The position numbers and the translations under genes were made by a program. From Desulfovibrionaceae bacterium (GTDB lineage Bacteria > Desulfobacterota > Desulfovibrionia > Desulfovibrionales > Desulfovibrionaceae): a DNA stretch of 50,687 nt. The notes beneath the pieces are model-generated. The model saw nothing but the letters and a program-made list of their open reading frames with translations. It searched no databases and was not told the DNA's origin. The stretch spans positions 1 through 50,687 of the forward strand of contig JACCQO010000024.1 of the NCBI GenBank assembly GCA_015709205.1, read 5' to 3'. Shown here one piece after another: positions 2,115 to 44,831 of this stretch (position 1 is the first letter of the stretch; each line of letters opens with the position of its first letter).

Positions 2115-2498
2115 TTAATCCGCCTCGTTGCAGCCGCAGACCGACATTTGTCCCGGGACCGTGGTCGTCCACTGGCCGTTCCAGCCGCCGTACCAGTGGC
2201 AGGCCGGCGGGCACTTGGTCTGGGCATCCCCGTTGTTCCAGATGGGCCCGGCGTTCTTGTCGTGGGGGTTGCCGGATGTGGGCGGCTCGTTGCAGCCGCA
2301 GACCGACATCTGGCCCTGAACCGTGGTCGTCCACTGGCCGTTCCAACCCTTGTAGTTCGCGCAGACGGGCGGGCACTTGGTCTTGGCGTCCTCGTTGTTC
2401 CAGATGGGCCCGGCGCGGACATCGTAGGCCTGGGCGGAGTAGGCGAGCCCGAACACCATCAAGACGAGCACAGCCAGCGAACAGAAGAATTTGTTCAT
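2115..2498 (-). CDS. Secreted two-domain MVL-type mannan-binding lectin
   Basis: 127 residues: a signal peptide (residues 1-24, AxA-type cleavage near SAQA) and two near-identical repeats. Each repeat reads AGPIWNN-(E/G)DA-x-TKCPP-x-C, then GWNGQWTTTV-x-GQMSVCGCN. The AGPxWxNxxAQ ... GQWTTxVxxxMSV layout is that of the Microcystis viridis lectin MVL, which binds the Man-beta-GlcNAc core of high-mannose glycans. Unlike cyanobacterial MVL, each repeat here has four cysteines, suggesting disulfides in the periplasm or outside. An AGGTG ribosome site precedes the ATG. It is divergent from marR. Fold assignment is strong; ligand and role are inferred. Confidence 0.85.
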   Translation of the reverse strand: MNKFFCSLAVLVLMVFGLAYSAQAYDVRAGPIWNNEDAKTKCPPVCANYKGWNGQWTTTVQGQMSVCGCNEPPTSGNPHDKNAGPIWNNGDAQTKCPPACHWYGGWNGQWTTTVPGQMSVCGCNEAD

Positions 2499-4813: not shown

Positions 4814-6328
4814 ATGCACCGCACGTTCACCATGGCCGATCAGCGGGATTTCGCCGCCCTTTCCGGGGACCACAACCCCCTGCACGTGGACCCGATCGCG
4901 GCGCGGCGGCTGCTGTTCGGTTCCTGCGTGGCGCACGGCGTGCACGTGCTGCTCTGGGGGCTGGATGTCCTGTTGGCCGGGGCCGCCGGGACCGTCGAGG
5001 CACCCGGGCCCGCCGGGACCCCCGGGTCCGCCGATTTCACGGACGTGATCGCGCTCAAGGCCGACTTCCGCAACCCCGTGCCCGTGGACGCCGTGGCCGA
5101 GATCGTGGACATGCGCCGCGACGGGAACGGCCTGGCCTTCAAGGTCGTCGCGCGCGGCCAGACCGCGCTCACGGCCTCCGCGACCCTGGCCCCGCGCTCC
5201 CCGGCCGCGTGCTCCGCGGACCTCCCCGTGGCGCGGGACGCGGCCTTCGGCGAGCGCTGCGACGATCCGGACCGCGCGTCCCTGGCGTCCCTTTCCGGCA
5301 CTACCCCCCTGGCCCTGGACGCGGACCTGTGCGCGCGGCTTCTGCCCGGCCTGGCCCGGGCCCTGCCCGGCGCGCGGATCGCCGCGCTGCTGGCCGCCAC
5401 GCGCATCGTGGGCATGCGCTGCCCGGGGCTGCACTCCATCTTCAAGGGGCTGGACCTGACCTTTTCCGGACCCGACGCCGGACCCGACGCCGGACCCGAC
5501 GCCGGACCCGACGCCGGACCCGTGCTCGCCTTCCGCACCGCGGAATACGACGAGCGCGTCTCGCGCCTGGACGTGGCCGTGCAGGGGCCGGGCGTCCGCG
5601 GCGCGCTGGCCGCGTTCGTGCGGCCCGCGCCCACGGCCCAGTCCTCGGCGGCGGAGGTGGCGGGCGAGGTCGCGGCCGGGGAGTTTTCCGGCCAGCGCGC
5701 CCTGATCCTGGGCGGCTCGCGGGGCCTGGGCGAGGTCACGGCCAAGCTGCTGGCCGCGGGTGGGGCCGAGGTCTGCGTGAGCTTTCATCGCGGCGAGCAG
5801 GACGCGCAGCGGTTGGTGCGGGAGCTCGCGACCGTGGGCCCGGCCGCCCGCTGCATCCGTTTCGACATCCTGGCCGAGCCCGCCAGGATGGCCGCCGACC
5901 TGGCCGGGGCGCTGGGCGCGTGGCGTCCCACGCATCTCTACGTCTACGCCACGCCGCCGATTTTCGTGGCCGCGAAAAAGGTCTTTGACCACACCCTGTT
6001 CGACGCCTTCTGCGCCTGCTACGTCAAGGGCTTCCACAACGCGGTGCAGGCGGTCCTGGCCCTGGGGCCGGGTTTGGAGCACGTCCTCTATCCCTCCAGC
6101 ACGGCCATCGACGAGGCGCCCCTGAACATGGGCGAATACGCGGCGGCCAAGGCCGCGGGCGAGAGCATGTGCGCCTTCCTGGCCAAGGCGCACAAGAAGA
6201 CCGCCTTCCACGCGCCCCGGCTGCCGCGGCTGGCCACGGACCAGACCGCCAGCGTGCTGGCTGTTGACAACAAAAATCCCGTCCCCTATCTTCTCAGCGC
6301 ATTGCGGGAAATGAATGCCAAGGCATGA
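4814..6328 (+). CDS. MaoC-like hydratase/dehydratase fused to an SDR reductase
   Basis: 504 residues. The N-terminal hotdog domain shows the MaoC hydratase motif with catalytic Asp19 and His24 (LSGDHNPLHVDP), followed by GSCVAHGVHV. The C-terminal SDR domain starts near residue 290: glycine-rich GGSRGLG, then PSSTAID and YAAAK as the Ser/Tyr/Lys catalytic set. MaoC acts on enoyl or hydroxyacyl thioesters and the SDR on keto/hydroxyacyl groups, so the fusion could process an acyl chain on the carrier protein encoded downstream. Between the domains is GPDA repeated four times, encoded by a perfect 12-nt tandem repeat (5468-5515). GAGGAAG precedes the start. The substrate is unknown. Confidence 0.85.
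   Translation: MHRTFTMADQRDFAALSGDHNPLHVDPIAARRLLFGSCVAHGVHVLLWGLDVLLAGAAGTVEAPGPAGTPGSADFTDVIALKADFRNPVPVDAVAEIVDMRRDGNGLAFKVVARGQTALTASATLAPRSPAACSADLPVARDAAFGERCDDPDRASLASLSGTTPLALDADLCARLLPGLARALPGARIAALLAATRIVGMRCPGLHSIFKGLDLTFSGPDAGPDAGPDAGPDAGPVLAFRTAEYDERVSRLDVAVQGPGVRGALAAFVRPAPTAQSSAAEVAGEVAAGEFSGQRALILGGSRGLGEVTAKLLAAGGAEVCVSFHRGEQDAQRLVRELATVGPAARCIRFDILAEPARMAADLAGALGAWRPTHLYVYATPPIFVAAKKVFDHTLFDAFCACYVKGFHNAVQAVLALGPGLEHVLYPSSTAIDEAPLNMGEYAAAKAAGESMCAFLAKAHKKTAFHAPRLPRLATDQTASVLAVDNKNPVPYLLSALREMNAKA
5468..5515 (+). repeat. Four 12-nt tandem repeats inside the MaoC-SDR gene
   Basis: GGACCCGACGCC repeated four times without a mismatch, then a partial unit. It encodes (GPDA)4-GP, a flexible acidic segment. 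Identical units suggest recent slippage, which stays in frame because the unit is a multiple of three. Confidence 0.9.
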
Positions 6329-6336
6329 CGGCTAGT

Positions 6337-6342
6337 TATAAT
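6337..6342 (+). promoter_or_regulatory. Possible -10 box ahead of the FkbH-like gene
   Basis: A perfect TATAAT lies in a locally AT-rich gap of 67 bases between the MaoC-SDR stop and the next start. No good -35 box is seen 16-18 bp upstream, so this is only a candidate internal promoter. Confidence 0.35.
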
Positions 6343-6395
6343 AGGTCAGCATTGTACAAAATTCTTTTCCGCCAGCCCCGAACCGCGAGCCGAGC

Positions 6396-8261
6396 ATGAC
6401 CGACACTCCCACCAAGAGCATCAAGGCCGTCAAGCAACTTGTGGCCAAGGCCGACTACGCCGAAGCCCTGGCCGCGCTCCGGGCCCTGGCGCGCCCCGAG
6501 GACGATTTCACCAACCAGCACAAGTATTTCAAGGTCCTGGAGTCGATGCCCCGGGAGTCCCTGGGGCTCAGGCCCCTGCGCATCGCCCTGGTGGGCACCT
6601 CGACCACCGACTACCTCTGCGAGCCGCTCAGGGTGCGCCTGGCCCTGGACGGTTTCGACGCGGACATCCACCAGGCCGAGTTCAACACCCTGGACCAGAC
6701 CCTGCTGGACCCTGCCGGCGCCCTCTACGCCTTTGACCCGGAGATCGTCTGGATCGTGGTCAACCACCGCGATGTGACGCCCCTGCCCGAGCCGGGCGCG
6801 TCGGCCGAGGAGGCCGAGGCGTGCGTGCGCCGCGCCGTGGAGCGGTTCACCGGCCTGTGGGACGCCGTGGCGCGCAACGGCTCGGCCTACGTGATCCAGT
6901 CCAACGCCGCGCTGCCCCTGGAGCGCGTCTACGGCAACTACGAGGGTGTGGCCGCCTGGGGCGGGATCAACGCCCTGCGGGCCTTCAACCTGGCCCTGGC
7001 GCGGGCCTGCCGTCCGGGCGTCACCGTGCTCGACGCGGACTACGTCTCCGCGCTGCACGGCAAGGCCGCGTGGTTCGACGAGCGCTACTGGAACAATTCG
7101 CGCAACGCCTGTTCCTTCGACGCCATGGGGCTGCTGGCCCACCACTTCTCCCGTCTGGTCTGCGGCATCAAGGGCCTGGCCCGGAAATGCCTGGTGCTCG
7201 ACCTGGACAACACGCTCTGGGGCGGGGTCATCGGCGACGACGGTCTGGCGGGCATCCGCCTGGGCGGCTCGGCCACGGGCGAGGCCTTCGTGGAGTTCCA
7301 GCGCTACTGCAAGCGGCTGCGCGAGCGCGGCGTGGTCCTGTGCGTGTGCAGCAAGAACGACGAGGACAACGCCAGGCAGCCGTTCCTCGAACACCCGGAC
7401 ATGGTCCTCCGGCTCGAGGACATCGCCGTGTTCGTGGCCAACTGGGAGAACAAGGCCGACAACATCCGCCATATCGCCGAGACCCTGGAGATCGGGCTGG
7501 ATTCGCTGGTCTTCGTGGACGACAACCCGGTGGAGCGGGAGCTGGTCGCCTCCATGCTGCCCATGGTCGCGGTGCCCGAGATGCCCGAGGATCCGGCCTA
7601 CTTCGTGCGCGCCCTGGACCGCGAACGCTGCTTCGAGACCGTGGCCTTCAGCGCCGAGGACCGCGCCCGGGCGGACATGTACCGCAACAACGCCCAGCGC
7701 AAGAGCCTGCAGCGGCAGTTCACGGACATCAACGAATTCCTGCGCGACCTGGGGATGCGCGCGGCCTCGGCGGACTTCGACGACATGTCCCTGCCGCGCG
7801 TGGCTCAGCTCATCAACAAGTCCAACCAGTTCCATCTCACGACCACGCGCTACACCGAGGCGCGCCTGCGCGACATGATGGCCGACCCGGCCACGGTCTG
7901 CCGCGCCTTCAAGCTGGCGGACAAGTTCGGCGACAACGGGCTCATCTCCCTGGTCATCCTCAAGCCCCACGGCGACGACGCCCTGATCGTGGACACCTTC
8001 GTCATGAGCTGCCGGGTGCTTTCGCGGGGCATGGAGGAGTTCGTGCACAACGAGATGGTCGAGGCCTGCCGGGCCATGGGCCGCACGCGGCTGATCGGCG
8101 AATACCGTCCGACGAAAAAGAACCGGCTCGTGGCCGACCTCTACGAACGGCTGGGCTTCGCGCACACGACAACGGACGCCCAGGGCAACGCCTTCTGGGA
8201 GCTGGCGATCACCGACGACCTGGCCCCGCGCACGCCGTTCATCGAACGGACGGACTGGTAG
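6396..8261 (+). CDS. FkbH-like HAD-IIIC family protein (predicted acyl-S-ACP loading enzyme)
   Basis: 621 residues. The central HAD domain has DLDNTLWGG at residues 269-277, a CSKN motif, and FVDDNPVERELV near residue 375. The C-terminal part has a GNAT-like ending (YRPTKKNRLVADLYERLGF). FkbH proteins of polyketide clusters take the glyceryl group of 1,3-bisphosphoglycerate, dephosphorylate it and load it on an acyl carrier protein; here the ACP gene starts 21 bases downstream. A roughly 200-residue N-terminal region (SGNH-like in related proteins) precedes the HAD part. That this member loads a glyceroyl-type unit is inference from the family and neighbours. Confidence 0.85.
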   Translation: MTDTPTKSIKAVKQLVAKADYAEALAALRALARPEDDFTNQHKYFKVLESMPRESLGLRPLRIALVGTSTTDYLCEPLRVRLALDGFDADIHQAEFNTLDQTLLDPAGALYAFDPEIVWIVVNHRDVTPLPEPGASAEEAEACVRRAVERFTGLWDAVARNGSAYVIQSNAALPLERVYGNYEGVAAWGGINALRAFNLALARACRPGVTVLDADYVSALHGKAAWFDERYWNNSRNACSFDAMGLLAHHFSRLVCGIKGLARKCLVLDLDNTLWGGVIGDDGLAGIRLGGSATGEAFVEFQRYCKRLRERGVVLCVCSKNDEDNARQPFLEHPDMVLRLEDIAVFVANWENKADNIRHIAETLEIGLDSLVFVDDNPVERELVASMLPMVAVPEMPEDPAYFVRALDRERCFETVAFSAEDRARADMYRNNAQRKSLQRQFTDINEFLRDLGMRAASADFDDMSLPRVAQLINKSNQFHLTTTRYTEARLRDMMADPATVCRAFKLADKFGDNGLISLVILKPHGDDALIVDTFVMSCRVLSRGMEEFVHNEMVEACRAMGRTRLIGEYRPTKKNRLVADLYERLGFAHTTTDAQGNAFWELAITDDLAPRTPFIERTDW

Positions 8262-8282
8262 GGCCCAAACGCAAGGCGAAAC

Positions 8283-8528
8283 ATGAGCAATCGAGAAGAG
8301 ATACGCAAACGGCTCCAGGCTATTTTCCAGGAAGTCTTCGACGACGACGAACTGGAGATCGACGACGCGACCTCGGCCGACGACGTGGACGACTGGGACT
8401 CCATCATGCACATCACGCTCATGGTGGCAGTGGAAAAGGAATTCGGCATGCAGTTCAACGCCGAGGAGATCGGCAAGCTGTCCGGCGTGGGCGGGCTGAT
8501 CGACCTCATCGAGCAGAGGGCGGGCTAG
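8283..8528 (+). CDS. Acyl carrier protein
   Basis: 81 residues, strongly acidic and of carrier-protein length. The phosphopantetheine attachment site is Ser40 in DDWDSIMHI, the D-S-(L/I) motif at the start of helix II; the four-helix pattern is intact. It is a dedicated carrier, not the fatty acid ACP, which usually has DSLD and lies beside fab genes. It sits between the FkbH-like gene and a methyltransferase plus MBOAT, so it most likely carries the acyl group made by the former and delivered to the latter. An AAGG ribosome site precedes the ATG. Confidence 0.93.
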   Translation: MSNREEIRKRLQAIFQEVFDDDELEIDDATSADDVDDWDSIMHITLMVAVEKEFGMQFNAEEIGKLSGVGGLIDLIEQRAG

Positions 8529-8560
8529 CCCCGACCCGAGGCCCCACGACGAGCGCGCGC

Positions 8561-9487
8561 ATGGACCACCTGCAGGTCTTTCTGGACCACCTCCGGGAAC
8601 ACCACGCCGTCTTCTACGGGGCCGTGGCCGCCACGGCCGAGGCCATGCCCGGGACCTTTCGCCGCGTGGGCGCGCCCATGGCCGATTGGGCGCACGCCTG
8701 CCTCGGCGACGACTTCGCGCGCGTTCTGGCCGAGGGCTACGTGCATCTCGTGATTGAGGCCAACCAGGCCCAGATGCGCTACGAGAAGCGCGGCAGCTAC
8801 GAGCACCGTTCCTACGCCGAGGTCTACGAGGCCGCCTACGGCAACGAGGCGTTCATGACCAAGTACCACTGGGGGTTGTACGTGGCCATGTTTGCCTGGG
8901 TGCACCACCTGCGGCTGTTTTCCTTCTACGAGCGGGAATTCCTGCCGCGCCTTGGCGAGGGGCTCACGGAAGGGGGCCGCGAGGTGGTGGCCGACCTGGG
9001 CTCGGGCTCGGGCATCTGGTCGCGCTTCGCGCTCGACGCGCACCCGGGCCTGGCCTGCGTGGGCGTGGACATCAGCCCCACCTCCGTGGACGAGGCGCGG
9101 CGCATGGCCGCGAGCACGGGCTTCGCCGCGCGCAGCGAATTCGTGCTCGGCGACGCCACCGCGCACAGGTTGGTGGAACCGGCGCACGCCGCCATCTCCA
9201 GCTTCCTGCTCGAACACCTGGAGCGGCCCGAAGCCCTGCTGGACAATCTGGCCGCCAACCTCGCCCAGGGCGGCTACGCCTGGATCACCGCCGCCCTGAC
9301 GGCCGCGGAGATCGACCACATCACCGAATTCCGCCGCGAGTCCGAGATCGTCCGCCTGGTCGAGGACGCGGGGCTGCGCGTGATCGCGACCCTTTCGGAA
9401 ACCCCGCGCGCCGCCAGGTCCAAGCTGCGGTTCGTGCCCCGCTCCATGGCCGTGGTGGCCCAGAAGCGGCGCAACGACATCTGGTGA
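8561..9487 (+). CDS. Class I SAM-dependent methyltransferase
   Basis: 308 residues. The Rossmann methyltransferase core begins near residue 140 with VADLGSGSGIWSR (motif I), then GVDISPTSVDEAR, GDATAHRL, and a LLEHLERPEALL helix. The first 135 residues are helical and lack a match I recognise; MRYEKRGSYEHRSYAEVYEAAYG is distinctive there. In this cluster it may O-methylate the ACP-bound hydroxyacyl unit or the decorated glycan; the sequence does not decide. The stop overlaps a possible GTG start of the MBOAT gene. The ATG at 8561 is the first that gives a complete N-terminus after the ACP stop. Confidence 0.88.
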   Translation: MDHLQVFLDHLREHHAVFYGAVAATAEAMPGTFRRVGAPMADWAHACLGDDFARVLAEGYVHLVIEANQAQMRYEKRGSYEHRSYAEVYEAAYGNEAFMTKYHWGLYVAMFAWVHHLRLFSFYEREFLPRLGEGLTEGGREVVADLGSGSGIWSRFALDAHPGLACVGVDISPTSVDEARRMAASTGFAARSEFVLGDATAHRLVEPAHAAISSFLLEHLERPEALLDNLAANLAQGGYAWITAALTAAEIDHITEFRRESEIVRLVEDAGLRVIATLSETPRAARSKLRFVPRSMAVVAQKRRNDIW

Positions 9488-9504
9488 CGGGGCCGCGCCG
9501 GGCC

Positions 9505-10953
9505 ATGAACATCGCCTCCATCGACTTTCTGCTCTTCGCGGTCGCGGCCGTGGCGCTGCCGGCCGTGGCCGGGCGTTTGCGGCCCTGGGTGTTCCTGGGG
9601 ATCAACCTCTGGTTCCTGGGCTCCTTCGCCAAGGGGCCCGCGGAGCTGTTTCCCCTGGCCGCCTTCCTGCTGCTGGGCTACGGCGCGGCCCGGCTAGCGG
9701 CAGCGCACCACGGCAGCAGGCACGGGCGCGCCCTGGGCAACGGCCTGGTTCTCGCGCTCGCGCTCCTGTTCCTCTACCTGCGCCGCTACAGCGTGCTCGC
9801 CTTCGTGCCCGCCCTGCCGGAACCGTACGTGACCATCGGCCTGTCCTACATCCTCTTCCGCCTGCTCCAGGTCGTGCTCGACGCGCGCGACGGGGCCCTG
9901 GGCGGCAAGGACCTGCGTCCCCTGGCCTACGCCAACTACACGCTTTCGTTCCTCACGCTCGTCTCCGGGCCCATCCAGCGCTACCAGGACTTCCTGCGCC
10001 AGGACGCGGCCCCGGCCCGGCTCACGGCCCCGCGCCTGGACGCGGCCCTGGGGCGCATGGGCACGGGCTTCTTCAAGCTCCTGCTCCTGGCCGACGTGCT
10101 CCTGCGCGTGCACGGCAAGCTGGGGCCGGACCTGGTGCACTCCCTGGCCCAGGGCGCAGGCGTGGCCCCGGCCCTGGGCGCGTTCTGTGCGGCCGCGGCG
10201 ACCTACGCCCTGTACCTCTACTGCAACTTCTCCGGCTCCATCGACGTGGTCGTCGGGGTCGGCGTCCTGCTGGGCTACGACCTGCCCGAGAACTTCGACC
10301 GCCCCCTGACCTCCGCCAACTTCCTGGACTTCTGGTCGCGTTGGCACATGACCCTGGCCAACTGGTTCAAGTTCTACCTCTTCAACCCCTTTCTCGGCGC
10401 GCTGCTGCGCCGCTGGCCCGCCCCGGCGATGCGCAACGGTTTCGCGGTGCTGGCCTTTTTCGTGACCTTCTTCTTCGTGGGCGCGTGGCACGGCACCACG
10501 TCCATGTTCCTGCTCTGCGGCGTGGCCCTGGGGCTGGGCGTGAGCGTGAACAAGCTCTGGCAGGTGCGCGTGCGCGCCTGGCTGGGCAGGAAGCGGCACA
10601 AGGCCCTGAACGGCTCCCGGCCGTACACCTGGCTCTGCCGGGGGCTGACCTTCGCCTACTTCAGCCTGTCCCTGTTCGCCTTCTGGCTCACTCCGGAGCA
10701 GGCCCGCACCCTGTTCGCGGGGCGCAGTTTCGTGCTCATGAACCTCGCGGCCCTGGGGGCCATCGCCTTGGCCGCCACGCCGGTCTATGCCCTGGTCGGG
10801 TTGGCCGAGGGGCCGTTCGCCGCCCTGCGCAGGGCGTTCGCGCGCGGCCGCCTGGGGCCCGGCGCGCTGCTCGCCGCCAAGATCGCCCTGGCCCTGGCCC
10901 TGGTGATGGGGGAAATGGGCGGGGCGCCCAACTTCGTGTACGGCAATTTCTGA
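9505..10953 (+). CDS. MBOAT-family O-acyltransferase (DltB/AlgI-like)
   Basis: 482 residues with about eleven membrane segments. Family signatures are present: GPIQRYQDF, the loop FLDFWSRWHMTLANWFKFYL (typical of DltB/AlgI), and GAWHG carrying the invariant catalytic histidine. Such enzymes take an acyl group from a cytoplasmic thioester, here probably the ACP encoded two genes upstream, and pass it across the membrane to a cell-surface polymer. The next gene encodes a membrane-anchored SGNH-like protein, the same pairing as DltB with DltD or AlgI with AlgJ. ATG at 9505 was chosen; a GTG at 9484 overlapping the previous stop would add seven residues. Confidence 0.92.
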   Translation: MNIASIDFLLFAVAAVALPAVAGRLRPWVFLGINLWFLGSFAKGPAELFPLAAFLLLGYGAARLAAAHHGSRHGRALGNGLVLALALLFLYLRRYSVLAFVPALPEPYVTIGLSYILFRLLQVVLDARDGALGGKDLRPLAYANYTLSFLTLVSGPIQRYQDFLRQDAAPARLTAPRLDAALGRMGTGFFKLLLLADVLLRVHGKLGPDLVHSLAQGAGVAPALGAFCAAAATYALYLYCNFSGSIDVVVGVGVLLGYDLPENFDRPLTSANFLDFWSRWHMTLANWFKFYLFNPFLGALLRRWPAPAMRNGFAVLAFFVTFFFVGAWHGTTSMFLLCGVALGLGVSVNKLWQVRVRAWLGRKRHKALNGSRPYTWLCRGLTFAYFSLSLFAFWLTPEQARTLFAGRSFVLMNLAALGAIALAATPVYALVGLAEGPFAALRRAFARGRLGPGALLAAKIALALALVMGEMGGAPNFVYGNF

Positions 10954-10964
10954 GGGATTACGGC

Positions 10965-11945
10965 ATGGGCGAAACGACACGAACCGGCTCCGAAGGGCGG
11001 ACCGAGCGGACCGAGCGGAGCGAACGCGGCGGGCTCCCGGGCCACGCCCTGGCCCTGGCCGGGGCGGCCGGGGCGGCGTTCCTGGTCCTGCTCGCCCTGG
11101 CCGTGCTCGTGGTGCGCTGCGCGGACCTCACGCGCAACGAGGAGTACACCCTGCGCGACCTGCACCATTTTTCCATCAAGGGCGCGGCCTACGACGTGGT
11201 CCTGGTCGGCGACTCCGCCCTGGCCACGCAGATCGATCCCGCCGTGCTCCGGGAACTGACCGGGCTTTCGGCCGTGAACCTGGCCCTGAACGGCAATTCC
11301 GGGCTGGCCGGGTACCGGCTGCTCATCGACGAATACCTGGCGAACAACGCCGCGCCCAGGGCGCTGGTCCTCTACTTCTCCTACGCCAACCCGCGGAACA
11401 TGAAGATCCGCCTGACCTTCGAGAAGACCTATACGCTCCTGCGTCACGCCCCACTCACCGCGCTGCCCGGCTACCTGCTGGACGGGGAGCTCTCCCTGGG
11501 CAGCGTGTTCTACACGGCCCGCAACCTCGTGTTGAACCGTCCGGACCCGCATGCCCGGGAGTACCTGGAGATGCTCGAACGCAACCGGGGCTACGGCTCG
11601 GCGCACCCCTGCGCGCGGCCGGTGGCCGACGACTACGCCGCCCCCTTCGTGCCGTACTCGGACGAGGACGTGGCCTACATGGTGCGGCTGCGCGACCGTT
11701 ATCTCGCGCGCGGCGTCGAAACCCGCCTCTACATCGCGGCCGAGCCCCGGACCCTGGCCAAGGACGCGCGCCGCTACGACGCGCTCTTCGGCCCCCTGGG
11801 CGCGCCGCCCATCGAAACCCTGCCCAACGACCTGTTCTGCGACGCCTCGCACATGACCCACGCGGGCGCGCGAGCGCAGTCCGAGCGCTTTGCGCGCGAC
11901 TTCCTCGCGCCGCTGTTCGGCGTGGACCTCGCTCCGGCCCGATAG
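10965..11945 (+). CDS. Membrane-anchored SGNH-like protein, DltD/AlgJ-type MBOAT partner
   Basis: 326 residues: a short cytoplasmic leader with RTERTERSER repeats (9-nt units, 10997-11023), one membrane helix (about 27-51), then an extracytoplasmic domain. VVLVGDSALAT supplies the block I motif (Asp83-Ser84) and DASHMTHAGA the block V motif (Asp293, His296) of SGNH esterases and acyltransferases. One N-terminal anchor plus an outer SGNH domain is the plan of DltD and AlgJ/AlgX, which work with an MBOAT to move the acyl group onto the final polymer. It follows the MBOAT by 11 bases. Homology to DltD proper is not claimed; the fold and role are inferred. Confidence 0.8.
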   Translation: MGETTRTGSEGRTERTERSERGGLPGHALALAGAAGAAFLVLLALAVLVVRCADLTRNEEYTLRDLHHFSIKGAAYDVVLVGDSALATQIDPAVLRELTGLSAVNLALNGNSGLAGYRLLIDEYLANNAAPRALVLYFSYANPRNMKIRLTFEKTYTLLRHAPLTALPGYLLDGELSLGSVFYTARNLVLNRPDPHAREYLEMLERNRGYGSAHPCARPVADDYAAPFVPYSDEDVAYMVRLRDRYLARGVETRLYIAAEPRTLAKDARRYDALFGPLGAPPIETLPNDLFCDASHMTHAGARAQSERFARDFLAPLFGVDLAPAR

Positions 11946-11986
11946 GGAATGGGGGACGGCCCCGCGACCGTCGTCCGCCGCGCCCG

Positions 11987-12817
11987 TCAGGGCGCGACCG
12001 CGACCGCGCGCACCGACTGTCCGAACACGCGCCGCGCCAGCGGCGTGAGCAGCCGGGACAGGGGGACCATGTACTTGTCGAAGAAGAGGATCTTGTCGTT
12101 GACGCCGTCGTCGGACAGGGTCTTGGGCTTGGTGAACCTGGCCGTGACCAGCCAGCCCAGGCCGCCCACGGGGTTGAAGTAGCCCACGTCCGCACGGGCG
12201 AAGCCCGCGTCCAGGAGCTTGCGCGCCAGCTCGGCCCGGCCGTAGCGCCGGTAGTGCCCGGCCAGCTCGTCCATGGTGCCGTAGAGGCCCTGGAACGCGG
12301 GCACGAGCAGCAGCAGCCGCCCCCCGGGAGCCAGGCAGCGGCGCAGGTTCACCAGGCAGGCCGCGTCGTCCTCGATGTGTTCGAGCACGTTCAGGCACAC
12401 GATGGCGTCGAAGGCCGCCGCGCCCACGATGTCCGGCAGCTCCGGGGCGGTGATGTCCGCGACCGTGAGCGTGACGTTGCCCGGCATTTCGGCGGCCAGC
12501 CCCAGGTTCTCGTCCGTGATGTCCAGGGCGGTCAGGGCCTGCACCCGGGGCGCGAGCATGCGCGTGTACTGGCCGTAGCCGAAGCCCACCTCCAGCAGCC
12601 GCGCGCCGAAATGGGGCGCAAAGGATTCCACGATCCAGTTGTGGTAGTTCACGGCGTGCGGCAGGGCCGAACTCATGGTCGCGGAACCGACCGGACCGGA
12701 ACCGACCGGACCGGAACTGGCCGGACCGGAATCGGCCGGAGCGGAATCGGCCGGAGCGGAATCGGCCGGGCCCGGGGTGATCGGTCCGGCCCCCTGCTGG
12801 TTCGGGGGCCGCGTCAT
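11987..12817 (-). CDS. Class I SAM-dependent methyltransferase (glycan cluster)
   Basis: 276 residues. The core begins after residue 45 with NYHNWIVESF, then LLEVGFGYGQYTR (motif I), ALDITDENL, FDAIVCLNVLEHIEDD and LRRCLAPGGRLLLLVP, a UbiE/Methyltransf_11 type. KTLSDDGVNDKILFFDKYM near the end is typical of methyltransferases found next to glycosyltransferases. The first 45 residues are a Pro/Ala/Ser/Gly tail encoded by a 15-nt tandem repeat, so translation might instead begin at a downstream ATG (codon for MSSALPHAV). The ATG used here overlaps the GT2 stop (ATGA). It probably methylates a sugar or lipid-linked glycan. Confidence 0.85.
   Translation of the reverse strand: MTRPPNQQGAGPITPGPADSAPADSAPADSGPASSGPVGSGPVGSATMSSALPHAVNYHNWIVESFAPHFGARLLEVGFGYGQYTRMLAPRVQALTALDITDENLGLAAEMPGNVTLTVADITAPELPDIVGAAAFDAIVCLNVLEHIEDDAACLVNLRRCLAPGGRLLLLVPAFQGLYGTMDELAGHYRRYGRAELARKLLDAGFARADVGYFNPVGGLGWLVTARFTKPKTLSDDGVNDKILFFDKYMVPLSRLLTPLARRVFGQSVRAVAVAP
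12683..12772 (-). repeat. Six 15-nt tandem repeats in the methyltransferase N-terminus
   Basis: On the plus strand: two copies of GGAACCGACCGGACC, one GGAACTGGCCGGACC, two GGAATCGGCCGGAGC and a final variant. It encodes a PADSA/GPVGS-type tail. A related 15-nt unit occurs at 17089-17133 in another gene. Not a CRISPR: there are no spacers. Confidence 0.9.
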
Positions 12818-13716
12818 GGCCGGCGGCTCGCGTTGTGGATCAGGTTCACGAGCAGGTCGGCAATGAGGCCGAAGAAGAAGCAGAGCGCGGACATGAGGAA
12901 GAAGAGCAGGGCCAGGGTGCCGATGGAATCGACCACGGCGATGTCGCGCAGGGCCCGGAGCACGAAGCAGACGAAGAACGCCCCGGAAAAGGTCAGGAAG
13001 AATTTTAGCGGCTTGAAGTAGACGATGATGCGCAGGATGAGCATCAGGAAGTTCATGAAGTCGCTCACCGGGCGGATCTTGGAGCTGCCCGCGCGCACGA
13101 AGTAGTCGATGGGGTGGTAGTGCAGCTTGTAGTGTTCGATGCAGCCCACCAGGGTGATGGTGGTGGTGAAGGAGAACCCGTCGGGAATGATGTTCCAGTT
13201 GCGGTAGGGAATCTCCTTGCGGAACAGGCGCAGGCCCGAGTTGATGTCCTTGATCCAGCGCTGGATGAGGAAGTAGATCACGGACTTGAGGATGACCTTG
13301 GCCAGCCGGTTGAGCAGGCCGATCTGCACGTTGTCGCCGCTGCGCTCGGCCACGATCATGTCGTTGTCGTCCATGCGCGCCACGAGGTTGGGGATCTCGC
13401 GGATCGGATAGGTGCCGTCGGCGTCGGTGATCAGGATCCAGTCGTGGCGGGCGTTCTCGATGCCCTCCTTGAGGGAGTAGCCGTAGCCCCGGTTGCGGGA
13501 GCGGTCGATGAGCCGCACGCCCTCGCAGGCGGCGAGGATGCGGCCGGAGTCGTCCGTGGAGCCGTCGTTGACCGCGATGATCTCGTAGGGCAGGCCCAGG
13601 GAGTCCATGGCGGCGCGCAGCTCGCGCATGGTGGGCTCCACGGCGTCCTGCTCGTTGTACACGGGGACGATGACCGAAATGGCCTTGGGGTCGGATGGGG
13701 TCGTTTCCTGGTTCAT
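12814..13716 (-). CDS. Family 2 glycosyltransferase with C-terminal membrane segments (GtrB/DPM1-like)
   Basis: 300 residues. GT-A fold start ISVIVPVYNEQDAVEPTM, then VNDGSTDDS and the metal-binding DAD at residues 98-100 (ITDADGTYP). Two or three hydrophobic helices lie after residue 225, including LALLFFLMSALCFFFGLIADLLV, as in polyprenyl-phosphate glycosyltransferases such as GtrB and dolichol-phosphate mannose synthase. It likely moves a sugar from a nucleotide donor to undecaprenyl phosphate. Both ends overlap neighbours by ATGA (asnB upstream, methyltransferase downstream), so the three genes are translated together. The sugar is unknown. Confidence 0.9.
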   Translation of the reverse strand: MNQETTPSDPKAISVIVPVYNEQDAVEPTMRELRAAMDSLGLPYEIIAVNDGSTDDSGRILAACEGVRLIDRSRNRGYGYSLKEGIENARHDWILITDADGTYPIREIPNLVARMDDNDMIVAERSGDNVQIGLLNRLAKVILKSVIYFLIQRWIKDINSGLRLFRKEIPYRNWNIIPDGFSFTTTITLVGCIEHYKLHYHPIDYFVRAGSSKIRPVSDFMNFLMLILRIIVYFKPLKFFLTFSGAFFVCFVLRALRDIAVVDSIGTLALLFFLMSALCFFFGLIADLLVNLIHNASRRP

Positions 13717-15650
13717 GGGGCGTGCCGGTGCGCCTTGAGCTGGGCAAAGGCGTCGTGCCAGAGGTGGAACATGATGCAGTTGAACAGCTTGAGGCTGTTG
13801 TCCCGCTCCTTGCGCGCGTGCTGCGCGGCCAGTTCGCGGATGGTCCCTTCGTCGTAGAAGGGATTCTTCCGGTTGCTCTCCAGGGCGCGCTCCAGCAGTT
13901 CGGAATCGCGGTGCAGCCAGTGGGAGATGGGCGAGTTGAACCCGGCCTTTTTGCGGTCGAGTATGGCGTCGGGCAGCCGCCCGCGCAAGCTTTTCCTCAG
14001 GATGTGCTTCTTGGAAAAGCCCTTCAGCTTGAATTCCGGCGGCAGGGCGGCCGCGAACTCCACCACGCGGTGGTCCAGGTAGGGGGCGCGCGCCTCCAGC
14101 CCGTGGGCCATGGTCGAGCGGTCCACCTTCACCAGGATGTCGTCGGCCAGCCAGGTCTTGATGTCCACGTACATGGCCCGGTCCAGGTAGTGCGCGGACG
14201 CGACCTCGGCGTCGAAGGCCGCGAAGGCCGCGGCCGGGTCGGCCCCCGGGGTGGTCCGCGGGTCCGCGAGGACGTCGCGCAGCCCCGAGTCCGGGTGCGC
14301 GGCGGCGAGTTTTTCGGCTTCGTCGAAGATGGTCCGCCAGTGGCAGTGCGCGTGGGCGAAGGGCAGGCCCAGCCCGGTGCAGAACCGCTTGATCTTGTAG
14401 TCCGCGCTGACCTTGCCGTGGCTCACGGGCAGGATTCCGGCCAGCCCGCGCAGCGCGGCCCTGGCGAACCCGGGCAGCCCGCCGAGCAGGTGGTGGAGGC
14501 GGTCCGCCACGTAGGTCTCGTAGCCCGCGAAGATCTCGTCGGCCCCGTCGCCGGAAAGGGCCACGGTCACGCGCTCGCGGGTCATGCGCGCCAGGTGGTA
14601 CATGGGAATGATCGAGGTGTCGCCCAGGGGCTCGTCGGCGTGGTAGGCGATGGCCGCGAGATCCTCCAGCACGCGCGCCTCCACCACGCGCTCCGTGTGC
14701 TCGGAGCCCAGGGCGTCCGCGGCGAAACGGGCCTCGCGCAGTTCGTCGTAGTCCTTTTCCCGGAACCCGATGGAAAAGGTCAGGGTCTCGCCGCCCTGGT
14801 CCGCGTTCAGGGCGCGCATGTGCGCCACCACCGAGGAGGAGTCCACCCCGCCGCTGAGGAACGCGCCCAGGGGCACGTCGCTGATCATGCGCAGCCGCAC
14901 GGCGTCGGCGAAGAGCCCCTGCAGCGCCTCGCCCGCCTCGGCCAGGCCGGCGTAGCGCGACTTGTTCAGAAAGGCGTCGGCCAGGTTCCAGTAGCGCACG
15001 GGCCCGGACGTGCCGGGTTCGCTCACGAGCATCCAGTGGCCGGGAGGCAGCTTTTTCACGCCGCGCAGCATGCAGGCCGAGGTCAGCGTGTAGTTGAGGG
15101 ACAGGTACTGGCCGAAGGCCGCGGGGTCCACGCCGAACTCGATTTCGGGATCGGCCAGCAGGGCCTTGGTCTCCGAGGCGAAGACGAAGCCCGCGGGCCG
15201 CTCGGCGTAGTAGAGCGGCTTTTTGCCCAGCCGGTCCCGCGCCAGGAACAGGGTGCGCCGTTCGCGGTCCCACAGGGCGAAGGCGAACATGCCCACGAAG
15301 CGGGCCAGGCACTCCACGCCCCAGCAACGGTAGGCCTCCAGGATGACCTCGGTGTCCGTGCCCGTGGCGAAGGTCGCGCCCTGGACGGCCAGTTCGCGCC
15401 GGATGTCCTGGAAATTGTAGATTTCGCCGTTGAAGACGATGACGTAGCGGCCCGCGCGGTCGTGCAGGGGCTGGGTCCCGGCCGCGCTGGTGTCGATGAT
15501 CGACAGCCGCCGGTGCCCGAGGGCCACGGGGCCCTCGGTCCACAGCCCCCCGGCGTCCGGGCCGCGGTGGGCCAGGAGCGCGTTCATGCGTCCGACCACC
15601 TCGGGGTCGGGCGCGCCGCGCCAGTTGATCTTGCCGCAGATGCCGCACAT
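13713..15650 (-). CDS. asnB: Asparagine synthase (glutamine-hydrolysing), AsnB-type
   Basis: 645 residues, full length. The N-terminus MCGICGKINWRG exposes Cys2 as glutaminase nucleophile, with HRRLSIID and FNGEIYNF of the class II amidotransferase domain. The synthetase domain has the pyrophosphate loop LSGGVDSS near residue 262. The enzyme makes asparagine from aspartate, ATP and glutamine, but many AsnB homologues inside surface-polysaccharide clusters amidate sugar acids or other carboxylates. Co-translation with GT2 and methyltransferase favours such a role. It follows the membrane protein gene by 99 bases on the minus strand. Confidence 0.93.
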   Translation of the reverse strand: MCGICGKINWRGAPDPEVVGRMNALLAHRGPDAGGLWTEGPVALGHRRLSIIDTSAAGTQPLHDRAGRYVIVFNGEIYNFQDIRRELAVQGATFATGTDTEVILEAYRCWGVECLARFVGMFAFALWDRERRTLFLARDRLGKKPLYYAERPAGFVFASETKALLADPEIEFGVDPAAFGQYLSLNYTLTSACMLRGVKKLPPGHWMLVSEPGTSGPVRYWNLADAFLNKSRYAGLAEAGEALQGLFADAVRLRMISDVPLGAFLSGGVDSSSVVAHMRALNADQGGETLTFSIGFREKDYDELREARFAADALGSEHTERVVEARVLEDLAAIAYHADEPLGDTSIIPMYHLARMTRERVTVALSGDGADEIFAGYETYVADRLHHLLGGLPGFARAALRGLAGILPVSHGKVSADYKIKRFCTGLGLPFAHAHCHWRTIFDEAEKLAAAHPDSGLRDVLADPRTTPGADPAAAFAAFDAEVASAHYLDRAMYVDIKTWLADDILVKVDRSTMAHGLEARAPYLDHRVVEFAAALPPEFKLKGFSKKHILRKSLRGRLPDAILDRKKAGFNSPISHWLHRDSELLERALESNRKNPFYDEGTIRELAAQHARKERDNSLKLFNCIMFHLWHDAFAQLKAHRHAP

Positions 15651-15749
15651 GCTCTGACCACCTATCCGCGGGCGGCGAAGAATTCAAGTCCGGGGCGGCG
15701 GGCGGTCTCGGCGGGACCGGCAGCGACGGAGCCGAAGGCCGTGGCGGGG

Positions 15750-17171
15750 CTAGCGGTCATGGCGCGGGACGCCGAGGCTGCGCAGGCCGAGGACGGCCAG
15801 CGCGACCAGCAGGCAGGTGGCCACGGTGGCGGTGTAGATCATGTAGCGGGTCTGCACGGGCTCCACCAGGGCCACGAGGCAGCCGTTGGCCAGGTGGGCG
15901 GCCAGGACGAGGAAGGCGGCCGCAGCCGGGCCGCTTCCGGTCTGTGCCTCGGCCCCCCGGGCGGACGCGCCGCGCGCCGGGGCCGCCCGGGTCGTCAGGG
16001 TCGCCAGGGTCGCGAGCAGGACCAGGCCCAGAGTGGCGGCGGCGAAATAGCCGCCCAGGCCGAAGGTCAGGGAGTAGGCGTAGAACTTGAGGCAGCGCGC
16101 CGGGTGCGCGTGGAGCAGGCCCAGGGCCACGCGCACGGTGCCCTGGTCCACGGCGCGCAGCACGGGCAGGTCGAAGTCCGCGCCCGGGCCCGGGGCGAAG
16201 ATTTCCCGCGCCGCCGGGAACACGGTCTTCCAGACGATGTCGTTGTAGTGGTTGTCGAAGTGGAGGATTTCGCCGTGCGCACCGCGGCCCAGGCGGGTCG
16301 CCTCTCCCTGGACCCAGCGGTTTTCCCGCAGCGCGGCGTGCACGCGCTCGAAGAAGCGCCGTTCCTTGGGGTCGGCGAACAGGGCGGCGTCCCCGGGCTG
16401 GGCCAGGAACAGGGGCGCGGCCACGAGCTGGATGCCGGTGAAGGGCGGGCGGCTGGCCTTGCCGTGCTGCAGGAGGTTCCAGCCCTTTTCCAGCGCCGTC
16501 GCGCCGAGGATGCAGAGGGCGAGCACCCCCAGCGCGGCGGCCCCGGCGCGCAGGGAGCGGGCCTGGACGCCGCGCCACACGGCGCAGAGCGCACCCACGG
16601 GATAGAGGAACAGGAACTGGGTGCGGGTGAGCACGAGCAGGCCGCTGACCAGGAAGAAGAGGGCGTAGGCGCGCAGGCCGCCCCGGCTCGCGGCGCGCAG
16701 CAGCAGGGCGGCGGCGGCCAGGAAGAGGGGGTAGGCCAGCCCTTCGGAGAGCAGCAGGTTGGCCACGCCGGACGAGGACGGCAGCAGGGGGACGAACAGG
16801 ACCAGGGCGAAGATGGGGCGCAGCCAGTCCGGCGCGCGCAGTGCGCGCGCGAGCGCGGAGCCGCAGTAGAGCACGGCCAGGCTGGCCCCGAGCGCCTGGA
16901 CCCAGAGGGCCGCCGTGGCGAACCCCGCGCCGAAGAGCGCCTGCAACCCTTGGAGCAGCAGGGGATAGAGCGGCGGGCGGATGGCCGCGGCGTGGAGATA
17001 GCCGCCGGTGTCCGGCTGCAGGAGCGGCCCGCGCAGCAGCACCAGGGCGAGCACCGCGACGTGCACGGCGATCTCCGCGCCGCGCGCCGGAACCGAACCG
17101 GCCGGAATCGATTTGGCCGGAACCGGGCGGCCCGCAGCCGGGCGGGAGAATTTCTTGCTGCGCGCGCTCAT
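15750..17171 (-). CDS. Polytopic membrane protein, GT-C glycosyltransferase-like
   Basis: 473 residues with about ten membrane helices and a large extracytoplasmic loop (roughly 255-345). QPDTGGYLHAAAIRPPLYPLLL soon after TM1 resembles the first luminal loop of PMT/ArnT-type (GT-C) lipid-sugar transferases, where an Asp and RPPLYP occur. That would fit the GT2 downstream, which could supply the polyprenyl-phosphate sugar. The N-terminal tail has 15-nt repeats (17089-17133) encoding GRPVPAKSIPAGSVPARG. The start lies ten bases after a cluster of G/C; no strong ribosome site is visible. I do not recognise a specific family beyond the fold. Confidence 0.75.
   Translation of the reverse strand: MSARSKKFSRPAAGRPVPAKSIPAGSVPARGAEIAVHVAVLALVLLRGPLLQPDTGGYLHAAAIRPPLYPLLLQGLQALFGAGFATAALWVQALGASLAVLYCGSALARALRAPDWLRPIFALVLFVPLLPSSSGVANLLLSEGLAYPLFLAAAALLLRAASRGGLRAYALFFLVSGLLVLTRTQFLFLYPVGALCAVWRGVQARSLRAGAAALGVLALCILGATALEKGWNLLQHGKASRPPFTGIQLVAAPLFLAQPGDAALFADPKERRFFERVHAALRENRWVQGEATRLGRGAHGEILHFDNHYNDIVWKTVFPAAREIFAPGPGADFDLPVLRAVDQGTVRVALGLLHAHPARCLKFYAYSLTFGLGGYFAAATLGLVLLATLATLTTRAAPARGASARGAEAQTGSGPAAAAFLVLAAHLANGCLVALVEPVQTRYMIYTATVATCLLVALAVLGLRSLGVPRHDR
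17089..17133 (-). repeat. Three degenerate 15-nt repeats in the membrane protein N-terminus
   Basis: Plus strand units GGAACCGAACCGGCC, GGAATCGATTTGGCC and GGAACCGGGCGGCCC. They share the GGAA-x-CG core with the 15-nt units at 12683-12772, though the two genes are unrelated. Confidence 0.7.
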
Positions 17172-19406: not shown

Positions 19407-20687
19407 ATGGCAGACCTGGATCTGGCGTTCGTGCGCGGGCAGTTTCCCGCCTTTTCCGAAGCGGCGCTGCAGGACACGTGTTTCTTCGAAAACGCGGGCG
19501 GGTCCTACATGTGCCGCCAGGTGATGGAGCGGCTGGAGTCGTACTACCGCCGATGCAAGGTCCAGCCCTATTACCCGAACCCCGTGTCCCTGCGGGCCGG
19601 GGCGATGATGGACGAGGCCTACGGGGCGCTGGCCGCGTGGATGAACGTGGGGCCGGACGAGATCTATTTCGGGCCGTCCACGTCGCAGAACGCCTGCGTC
19701 CTGGCCCAGGCCGCGCTCGGCTGGCTGCGGCCCGGCGACGAGATCGTCGTGACCAACCAGGACCACGAGGCCAACAGCGGCGCGTGGCGGCGGCTGGAAC
19801 GGCAGGGCGTGGCGGTGCGGGAGTGGCGTATGGACCCGGAAACGGGCGAGCTGCCCGTGGCGCGGTTGCCGGAGCTGTTTTCGAAGCAGACCAGGCTGCT
19901 GGCCTTTCCGCACTGCTCGAACATCCTCGGGGAGAGGAACCCGGTCGCGGAGATCTGCGCGCTGGCCCGGGAACACGGCGTGCGCACGGTGGTGGACGGC
20001 GTGTCCTTTGCCGGGCACGGCCTGCCGGACGTGCGCGGCCTGGGCGCGGACGTCTATCTCTTTTCGCTCTACAAGGTCTACGGCCCGCACCAGGGCGTGA
20101 TGGTCATCGCGCCGGACATGGCCGAGCTCCTGGCCGGCCAGGGGCACTTCTTCAACGCCGGGGTGCGGGAGAAGCGGCTGACGCCCGCCGGGCCGGACCA
20201 CGCCCAGATCGCGGCGGTCAAGGGCGTGGGCGACTATTTCGAGGCGCTGTACCGGCACCATTTCGCGGACTCGGGTACTGGGGACCCGGGTATTGGGGAC
20301 GCGGGCACTGGGGACGCGGGCGACGCACCGGCGGCGCGCAAGGCCGAGGCGGTCCGCGACCTGCTGCACCGGGCCGAGGCGCCGGTCCTGGGGGCGCTGC
20401 TGGACTATCTCGCCGCGCACGCGCGGGTGCGGGTGGTCGGCCCCACGGACCCGGAGCGGCGCTCGCCCACGGTCTCGGTGCGGCCCGAGGGCAAGAGCCC
20501 CTGGGAGCTGGCCGAACGTCTCGGCGAGCGGGGCATCCTCTGCGGGGCCGGGCACTTCTATTCGGTCCGCCTGCTGGAGGCCCTGGGCATCGACCCGGCC
20601 GTGGGCGTGCTGCGGTTTTCGCTGGTGCACTATACGTCGCGCGAGGACGTGGAGCGGCTCATCGCCGCGCTGGACGACGTGCTCTAG
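19407..20687 (+). CDS. Cysteine desulfurase-like PLP enzyme (class V aminotransferase fold)
   Basis: 426 residues. Class V fold: YFGPSTSQNACVL phosphate-binding region, NQDHEANSGAWRRL, HCSNILGERNPVAEI, VDGVSFAGHG and the PLP lysine Lys223 in LFSLYKVYGPHQGVM. The layout matches the TIGR01976-type cysteine desulfurase-like subfamily rather than IscS or SufS. An acidic GTGDP/GIGDA/GTGDA insert (20273-20317) encoded by a 15-nt repeat lies near residue 290. GAAGGTGAG precedes the start. Real substrate unknown; a sulfur or selenium role tied to the molybdoenzyme 25 bases downstream is possible but unproven. Confidence 0.88.
   Translation: MADLDLAFVRGQFPAFSEAALQDTCFFENAGGSYMCRQVMERLESYYRRCKVQPYYPNPVSLRAGAMMDEAYGALAAWMNVGPDEIYFGPSTSQNACVLAQAALGWLRPGDEIVVTNQDHEANSGAWRRLERQGVAVREWRMDPETGELPVARLPELFSKQTRLLAFPHCSNILGERNPVAEICALAREHGVRTVVDGVSFAGHGLPDVRGLGADVYLFSLYKVYGPHQGVMVIAPDMAELLAGQGHFFNAGVREKRLTPAGPDHAQIAAVKGVGDYFEALYRHHFADSGTGDPGIGDAGTGDAGDAPAARKAEAVRDLLHRAEAPVLGALLDYLAAHARVRVVGPTDPERRSPTVSVRPEGKSPWELAERLGERGILCGAGHFYSVRLLEALGIDPAVGVLRFSLVHYTSREDVERLIAALDDVL
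20273..20317 (+). repeat. Three 15-nt tandem repeats in the PLP enzyme gene
   Basis: GGGTACTGGGGACCC, GGGTATTGGGGACGC and GGGCACTGGGGACGC encode GTGDP-GIGDA-GTGDA, a surface-loop insertion. Confidence 0.85.
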
Positions 20688-44300: not shown

Positions 44301-44831
44301 TACGGCGGCGCGGGCGACGACTGGCTGCAGGGCGGCGAGGGCCACGACACCCTCTACGGCGACGCCGGGGCCGACAAGTTCAACGTGGCCGAGTCCGGCA
44401 CCAACGACTGGGACGTGATCAAGGATTTCAGCCACGCCGACGGCGACAAGGTCCACCTGGAGATCAACGGTGATATGTTCGGGACCGGGGCCACGAACAA
44501 CGGCACCAAGGTCTTCACCCGCGAGGGAACCCTGCACCAGGGAGACTACGTGGCGCATCTCTTCGCCGCGGCCAGCAAGGCGGCCGTGATCCAGTCCGTG
44601 AGCTTGGCCGGGTGGACCGGCGCGGCGGGCAAGTACGTGGCCTTCGGCTACGTCACGGGCTCCCAGAAGCTCTATGCCTTCCACGTCAACGACACCAACG
44701 GCGCGGGGGCAGGCTATGCTTCGATGACCACCAGGACCATCGCCAATCTGTCGAATATCACCCACGTGGCCACCACGACCAACCCGTCGGGAACACACGA
44801 CATCTCCATCCACGACATCATCCTGGTCTGA
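41322..44831 (+). CDS. FecR-domain RTX calcium-binding surface protein
   Basis: 1169 residues. No Sec signal. Residues about 8-165 form a FecR-like domain ([57 protein letters not shown]). A Gly/Asp/Glu low-complexity region spans about 205-360. From about 400 there are many RTX nonapeptides (GGxGxDxxx, e.g. [31 protein letters not shown]), and the end holds a type I secretion-like region ([10 protein letters not shown]...[14 protein letters not shown]). It should leave by a type I exporter and fold on calcium outside, like the biofilm-associated RTX proteins of Desulfovibrio. No exporter is in the window. GGAGGAGA precedes the ATG. Confidence 0.9.
41930..42230 (+). repeat. Acidic Gly-Glu-Asp coding repeat tract
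   Basis: GGCGAG/GGCGAC/GAAGGC hexamer-type repeats code for (GE/GD)n inside the RTX gene, joining the FecR domain to the calcium-binding repeats. It ends in [14 protein letters not shown] from a 12-nt unit. Confidence 0.85.

Follow-up and report, generated by a model that had tools for sequence, protein, structure and literature searches.

An operon at positions 4814-11945 (+) of a 50,687-nucleotide stretch of DNA from a Desulfovibrionaceae bacterium (contig JACCQO010000024.1 of assembly GCA_015709205.1; the whole stretch is called the window below) appears to encode a surface acylation system fed by a dedicated carrier protein. Its six open reading frames, all on one strand, specify a MaoC-SDR fusion (SDR, short-chain dehydrogenase/reductase), an FkbH-like protein, an acyl carrier protein (ACP), a methyltransferase, a membrane-bound O-acyltransferase (MBOAT) and an SGNH-like protein. 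With a probability of about 0.55, we propose that an acyl group, likeliest lactyl, is assembled on the ACP and exported to a surface glycan by the MBOAT, which carries a fused acyl-shuttle motif, together with its SGNH-like partner. Gene order, domains, intact catalytic motifs and the recurrence of the gene set were observed directly. A first-pass annotation of this DNA had listed six co-directional genes with their families and the motifs DLDNT, DSI, GAWHG, GDS and DxxH; every motif was found as described, and family searches identify all of the products but the sixth. Its picture of a carrier-fed export set, with FkbH in the place of DltA, an adjacent dedicated ACP and an MBOAT/SGNH pair, is likewise borne out. 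The genes are spaced by 67, 21, 32, -4 (an overlap) and 11 bp. Two sigma-70-like promoter matches fall within 6264-6342, where MaoC-SDR ends and just ahead of FkbH (shuffles of the region average 0.3), and the segment from FkbH to the SGNH-like gene may have its own promoter.

The donor side begins with the FkbH-like protein (6396-8261, +; 621 residues), a HAD-IIIC glyceryl transferase/phosphatase that scores 297 bits with TIGR01686 (cut-off 147) and 44 bits with FkbH_N (PF21211). The loading residues, which the first-pass annotation had singled out for checking, are intact on alignment: DLDNT, SKN, DDNP and SCRV are identical in all eight sequences. A single solved structure, 3SLR, is related to the protein by sequence. 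It is the sole FkbH match of its genome, and in a draw of the 59 closest relatives, the window's own genome aside, no more than two have one. Members of the family have the established role, described in the passages cited, of loading a glyceryl unit from 1,3-bisphosphoglycerate onto carrier proteins of polyketide and peptide pathways (PMC7489565; PMC8949500). As a family member, the window protein would load glycerate from 1,3-bisphosphoglycerate onto the stand-alone ACP encoded 21 bp downstream (8283-8528, +; 81 residues). This ACP matches PF00550 (PP-binding) at 29 bits, over the cut-off, and has its attachment serine in a WDSI motif, of which WDS is kept in nine of nine aligned ACPs. Its NCBIfam matches are mostly to ACP models of the fatty acid synthesis type, none of which reaches its own cut-off.

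The loaded glyceryl unit may then be processed by MaoC-SDR (4814-6328, +; 504 residues), a MaoC-type double hot-dog dehydratase joined to an SDR ketoreductase (adh_short 47 bits, MaoC 44 bits). All 26 aligned sequences share the MaoC residues D19 and H24, and all 25 untruncated ones share S428, Y442 and K446 of the SDR, so that the feature marking bifunctional dehydratase-ketoreductase (DH-KR) proteins, two fused activities with intact catalytic residues, is present. A predicted structure (predicted local distance difference test, pLDDT, 75) has two hot-dog-like units and an SDR domain, and a Foldseek search with it returned SDR ketoreductases, with a mycobacterial dehydratase at rank 6. In the part of a review that treats FR901464 and lankacidin biosynthesis, DH-KR proteins convert glyceryl-S-ACP to lactyl-S-ACP (PMC4765723). 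By analogy, the MaoC domain would dehydrate the 3-hydroxyl of glyceryl-ACP to give enol-pyruvyl/pyruvyl-ACP, and the SDR domain, given that precedent and its link to FkbH, would reduce pyruvyl-ACP to lactyl-ACP. Conversion of glyceryl to lactyl would also be the simplest chemistry for a dehydratase-reductase that adjoins FkbH without a ketosynthase. Where the first-pass annotation had left the choice between a glyceroyl-type and a processed group, lactyl is favoured because published DH-KR proteins make lactyl-ACP from glyceryl-ACP and because MaoC-SDR is linked to FkbH; by this analogy the exported group is likeliest lactyl, perhaps O-methylated. Inside the MaoC-SDR gene, a perfect 12-bp tandem repeat of 4.8 copies (5466-5522) encodes a GPDA run.

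The candidate for such capping is a class I methyltransferase dependent on S-adenosylmethionine (8561-9487, +; 308 residues), which matches Methyltransf_25 (PF13649) at 48 bits and is of a generic kind. It may O-methylate the ACP-bound acyl group, conceivably at the 2-hydroxyl, or else the glycan. Relatives of it were found at seven of 62 related loci.

Export would fall to the MBOAT (9484-10953, +; 489 residues; PF03062, 71 bits against a cut-off of 27), which has the catalytic histidine of GAWHG. Its protein ends in NFVYGNF (FVYGNF at 10933-10950), a fit to the FxYxxF acyl-shuttle motif, and a relaxed form of this pattern ends 18 of 21 MBOATs encoded at FkbH loci and 11 of the 14 in our Pseudomonadota draw (see below); the 21 include near-copies, three from Paraburkholderia and two from Sinorhizobium. 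The tyrosine of a C-terminal FxYxxF is acylated in PatA, and in the model given for that protein the acyl group is handed on to the SGNH partner, while Dlt has the motif on a microprotein, DltX, and draws on a carrier protein as donor (PMC12148441, in the sections cited). If the window MBOAT works as PatA does, it would take the acyl group from the ACP at the inner face of the membrane onto the tyrosine of its own FVYGNF. Since a fused FxYxxF and a dedicated ACP occur in one operon, the window unites two features that have been reported apart. The description of the system as Dlt-like consequently stands in part: carrier protein, MBOAT and SGNH-like partner are all there, but the shuttle is a fused one of the PatA type and the DltB equivalog model TIGR04091 scores 158 bits against a cut-off of 375. 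For these two reasons the likeness to Dlt lies mainly in the possession of a carrier protein. Nine other MBOATs scanned, the second one of the genome included, are likewise far under the DltB cut-off, and the score alone therefore has no power to separate FkbH-linked MBOATs. The two relatives of the window MBOAT found by sequence in the PDB are both DltB proteins, and a search of plasmids for the MBOAT at E <= 1e-20 gave no match.

The SGNH-like protein (10965-11945, +), the proposed extracytoplasmic transferase, is the product that family searches left without a name, since neither Pfam nor NCBIfam gave a match at E <= 0.01. Hydropathy shows a single membrane helix at its N terminus; the sequence contains GDS and, in its C-terminal part, DASH, and the Ser, Asp and His positions are conserved across the four sequences aligned. 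Over about 275 residues it is 34-35% identical to the partner of the genome's second MBOAT. That second MBOAT, which ends in EFIYFNF, and its SGNH-like protein adjoin an AsnB-type gene on another contig of the same genome (C6, locus L045, 4293-8578, minus strand). Neither this pair nor the FVYGNF that ends the window MBOAT had been noted in the first-pass annotation. Anchored in the membrane, the SGNH-like protein of the window would accept the acyl group on its GDS serine and esterify a surface glycan hydroxyl with it.

The tie between FkbH and the MBOAT recurs in other genomes. Of 398 Pseudomonadota genomes searched with an FkbH profile, 44 were positive, with 57 matches in all, and 32 of these matches were read together with up to 8 kb of flanking sequence (474,934 bases). 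They comprise 30 of the best-scoring 32 and two lower ones; omitted from the best 32 were G453, which is the same as locus L037, and a match truncated at the edge of its contig. Five of the other 23 matches were covered through MaoC-SDR. The flanks of the 32 loci hold an ACP in 28 cases, an MBOAT in 14, MaoC-SDR in eight, MBOAT and MaoC-SDR together in five, and a relative of the window methyltransferase in five (one weak). Across about 120.5 Mb, the same 30 genomes gave 72 MBOAT matches, a density at which 0.28 MBOATs, not 14, would be expected in the sequence read. As the profile was built partly from MBOAT-bearing loci, this enrichment holds for one branch of FkbH and not for all FkbH proteins; related loci, moreover, are not independent, and one row of the profile, from G147, was translated from upstream of the frame and has an internal stop. 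At ten of the 14 MBOAT-bearing loci a neighbouring protein combines GxS with a C-terminal DxxH, and at two others (L122 and L125) a neighbouring protein matches the SGNH profile.

A midpoint-rooted tree of 54 FkbH proteins, drawn from sequences that match the profile at E < 1e-100 (L039, L040, L057 and L137 left out), places all 19 MBOAT-linked members in one clade of 31 (FastTree support 0.82). None of the other 23 is MBOAT-linked, and proteins linked to ketoacyl-ACP synthases (KAS) and polyketide synthases (PKS) are among them; MaoC-SDR-linked proteins occur on both sides (10 of 31 and 6 of 23). The window FkbH clusters with L117 and L115 (support 0.999). L117 has FkbH, MaoC-SDR, MBOAT, an SGNH-like protein and ACP, and L115 has FkbH, ACP, MaoC-SDR and an SGNH-like protein before its contig ends. 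All six functions are found at L107: ACP, FkbH, methyltransferase, MBOAT, an SGNH-like candidate adjoining the MBOAT (368 residues, with LGAS and a C-terminal DSAH) and, on the opposite strand and 5 kb off, MaoC-SDR. Five of its six proteins align with those of the window at 32-44% identity.

The same tree bears on the idea that the cassette yields a soluble natural product derived from glycerate, which the MBOAT would tailor. FkbH and MBOAT do co-occur in nonribosomal peptide synthetase (NRPS) clusters of the suomilide type (PMC13122637 and PMC10143770, in the portions cited), and the SDR domain just tops the cut-off of the Pfam polyketide ketoreductase family (23.1 against 22.6 bits). Yet a family scan of ten window proteins (4814-17171) found no ketosynthase, adenylation or condensation family, and the MBOAT-linked FkbH proteins stand in their one clade apart from the PKS- and KAS-linked ones sampled. 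In the NRPS clusters, the proposal of those sources is that FkbH loads the starter of the peptide and that the MBOAT acts elsewhere, on a sugar in suomilide, while in the window the FxYxxF motif and the SGNH-like partner point to an extracytoplasmic polymer. We regard a soluble product as highly improbable.

Another account would separate the two halves of the operon, with the ACP serving a cytoplasmic reaction, which might be the N-acylation of an amino sugar in nucleotide-linked form, and the MBOAT/SGNH pair being an independent O-acetylase that uses acetyl-CoA and adjoins it fortuitously. Other MBOAT/SGNH pairs are described as using acyl-CoA (PMC12148441), an ACP pathway of Pseudomonas syringae serves an N-acylated flagellin sugar in the excerpt cited (PMC3927599), and the FkbH, ACP and MaoC-SDR of G147 stand with a GNAT protein and a polysaccharide deacetylase, as the FkbH and MaoC-SDR of L159 do with a GNAT-like protein. 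Against this, MBOAT accompanies FkbH far more often than expected by chance and is characteristic of one FkbH clade, no GNAT or other soluble acyltransferase family was matched among the six operon proteins, and the methyltransferase and MBOAT genes overlap by 4 bp; an independent O-acetylase is accordingly improbable in our judgement.

MaoC-SDR, too, is tied to FkbH. In the window's phylum, 395 genomes gave one strong match besides the window's own genome, in G147 (order FkbH-ACP-GNAT-polysaccharide deacetylase-MaoC-SDR), and a second, weak one in G278 (26%); the rest of the 306 phylum genomes that match at E <= 0.001 have short matches, mostly to the SDR part. Among Pseudomonadota the fusion was found in 14 of 259 genomes (17 matches), and all 14 have FkbH (G915 at 8.8e-120) against a background of 44 of 398 at 1e-120. 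The Fisher value is 7e-15, on the assumption, suggested by shared genome handles, that the draw of 259 genomes is nested within that of 398, counting G915 as FkbH-bearing though it is just beyond the background limit of 1e-120, and entering G1222 and G1244 as background though both carry MaoC-SDR. For 11 of the 17 matches FkbH is no more than about 4.6 kb away. Another, on a 5.4-kb contig, is accompanied by an ACP alone, and the other five have no FkbH close by (a contig end cuts one of these, and in a second FkbH is about 18 kb off). A scan of named genomes gave five loci: three in Paraburkholderia with FkbH-ACP-MBOAT-SGNH-like-MaoC-SDR, and two, in metagenome-assembled genomes labelled Chloroflexota, with MaoC-SDR alone and FkbH elsewhere in the genome. 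A Niveispirillum plasmid has FkbH-ACP-WcbI-like-MaoC-SDR. The fusion is rare within Burkholderiaceae (1 of 299) and Paraburkholderia (3 of 144). With FkbH likewise sparse among the window's closest relatives, the spread of the operon's parts is patchy, and they have probably moved horizontally.

These distributions also weigh on the possibility that the exported group is glyceryl or O-methylglyceryl, with MaoC-SDR having another job or serving a minor pool. Sets of FkbH, ACP, MBOAT and SGNH-like protein exist without MaoC-SDR, relatives of the methyltransferase occur at FkbH loci L055 and L054, where the stretch read again has no MaoC-SDR, gellan is known to bear L-glycerate (from a reference title in PMC4432689), and the glycerate of suomilide is proposed, in the passage cited, to be methylated after FkbH loading (PMC13122637). 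However, MaoC-SDR belongs to the same gene run as FkbH in the window, L117 and L115, and every MaoC-SDR genome of the draw holds FkbH. A glyceryl group is in our view rather unlikely, and we continue to prefer lactyl.

The acceptor is plausibly a lipid-linked or periplasmic glycan, and exopolysaccharides with glyceryl and lactyl substituents are on record in the part of the literature cited (PMC4432689). The first-pass annotation had looked to the glycan of the convergent operon at 11987-17171, whose genes encode AsnB, a glycosyltransferase of family GT2, a second methyltransferase (MT2) and a membrane protein. This partner was set aside when a tblastn search of the four genes against 62 related loci gave no support: AsnB and the membrane protein match at none of the 62, GT2 weakly at two, and MT2 at three, at each of which the operon methyltransferase itself matches. 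At L037, the one Paraburkholderia locus examined for it, a GT87 gene precedes MaoC-SDR, and GT87 is seen inside the Paraburkholderia ginsengisoli operon.

Several observations count against a lactyl-exporting system of this kind. The FR901464 and lankacidin DH-KR proteins are likened to the window MaoC-SDR by their published description, and the dehydratase part of the latter is MaoC-type. The fold prediction for the SGNH-like protein is poor (mean pLDDT 56): SGNH hydrolases are the top Foldseek folds and DltD is at rank 12, none at E <= 0.001, which lends weak support to the SGNH identity. Partners are doubtful at L103 (masked bases) and L120 (DNH for DxxH), and the MBOATs of L119, L120 and L125 (three of the 21) lack FxYxxF. 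FkbH, ACP, MBOAT and SGNH-like protein occur without MaoC-SDR, in the stretch read, in Sinorhizobium meliloti, on a plasmid of Rhodobacteraceae SC52 and in Tistrella, whereas MaoC-SDR accompanies GNAT-like proteins (G147 and L159) or a WcbI-like protein (Niveispirillum) where MBOAT is absent. In the window's phylum ten further FkbH loci were read, and no MBOAT was seen at any of them, though contig ends cut several of the flanks; the co-occurrence that the first-pass annotation called for thus holds for the FkbH/ACP/MBOAT set elsewhere but not at these ten loci, among which the window is an exception.

Because sets without MaoC-SDR exist, the fusion must be optional, and because MBOAT, GNAT-like and WcbI-like partners alternate beside FkbH and ACP, with or without MaoC-SDR, these genes look like a portable unit that supplies acyl groups to interchangeable transferases. 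At L114 (5621-11008), FkbH, ACP, MaoC-SDR and an unassigned 292-residue protein adjoin flgA (Pfam ChapFlgA), followed by flagellar-looking genes, which suggests that this group serves modification of a flagellin glycan. The neighbours of FkbH in S. meliloti were read in two records (L053 and L057), and 38 Sinorhizobium records have an FkbH match. The MBOAT partner at L053 (2386-3615), annotated as a 'TonB-dependent receptor', has no Pfam family and carries GGS and DPGH, like the SGNH-like partners.

Both halves of the proposed system, FkbH donor chemistry and MBOAT-SGNH export, are known; their union is new within the literature searched, as the open-licence part of it yielded no account of an FkbH-ACP-MBOAT-SGNH acylation system. 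We infer all of its chemical steps from sequence, including the acyl group, the acceptor and the activity. More tentatively, and at slightly less than even odds, the set may represent a third MBOAT-SGNH architecture, in which FkbH feeds a dedicated ACP from an intermediate of glycolysis, MaoC-SDR converts the loaded glyceryl to lactyl, the methyltransferase perhaps caps it, and the MBOAT, with its fused shuttle and SGNH partner, places (O-methyl)lactyl or glyceryl esters on a surface glycan; versions from Paraburkholderia, Rhodobacterales and Tistrella would belong to it, as would that of the pSymB replicon of S. meliloti. If so, a carrier route fed by glycolysis would join the envelope acyltransferases, which apart from Dlt are described as users of acyl-CoA, and polyketide starter-unit chemistry would have been reused in cell-surface decoration. 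The genes are, moreover, a candidate genetic basis for the glyceryl and lactyl substituents of bacterial polysaccharides, and S. meliloti, whose pSymB carries an FkbH-ACP-MBOAT-SGNH-like version, is a ready test organism.

Elsewhere in the window, tandem repeats of 15-18 bp lie near the operon (e.g. 12682-12769, 20267-20320 and 22351-22392). At 2115-2450 (minus strand), a 162-bp unit present 1.8 times encodes two GPIWNN..GWNGQWTTT..MSVCGC modules behind a signal-like sequence, which we take to resemble mannan-binding MVL-type lectins. An open reading frame of 1169 residues (41322-44831) has five stretches of RTX calcium-binding nonapeptide repeats (PF00353) and also matches FecR, under the cut-off.

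Among known systems, the viosamine island of P. syringae (vioA, M, T, S, B, R and acp), which makes an acylated, methylated glycan sugar, shares an ACP, a reductase and a methyltransferase with the window operon; it differs in having a KAS III (VioS) and VioB, listed as an acetyltransferase, and has no FkbH, MBOAT or SGNH gene among the seven genes listed in the passages cited (PMC3927599). The methoxymalonyl-ACP route resembles the operon in its FkbH, stand-alone ACP and methyltransferase (PMC7489565), and the lactyl-ACP starter route in its FkbH, ACP and dehydratase-ketoreductase (PMC4765723), as far as the cited passages describe them. In contrast to these FkbH glycerate pathways (methoxymalonyl-ACP, tetronates and lactyl starters), the window has no ketosynthase, and the acyl group would be exported by the MBOAT/SGNH pair. 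Membership of the Dlt system itself was considered and dropped on the DltB score and on the lack of a DltD (PF04914) match in the window genome, a search in which two of 14 control genomes, both Gram-positive, were positive. The operon nevertheless shares with Dlt a dedicated carrier protein adjoining an MBOAT with an SGNH-like partner. FkbH stands where Dlt has the DltA ligase (no adenylation family was matched among the six operon proteins), and the shuttle tyrosine, on the DltX microprotein in Dlt, is fused to the MBOAT. With PatAB and AlgIJ the window has in common the MBOAT histidine, the C-terminal FxYxxF and a partner with GDS and DxxH, whereas its operon contains, unlike theirs, an ACP and an ACP loader. 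On these comparisons, export is probably PatAB/AlgIJ-like, with a fused shuttle, and fed by a dedicated carrier as in Dlt.

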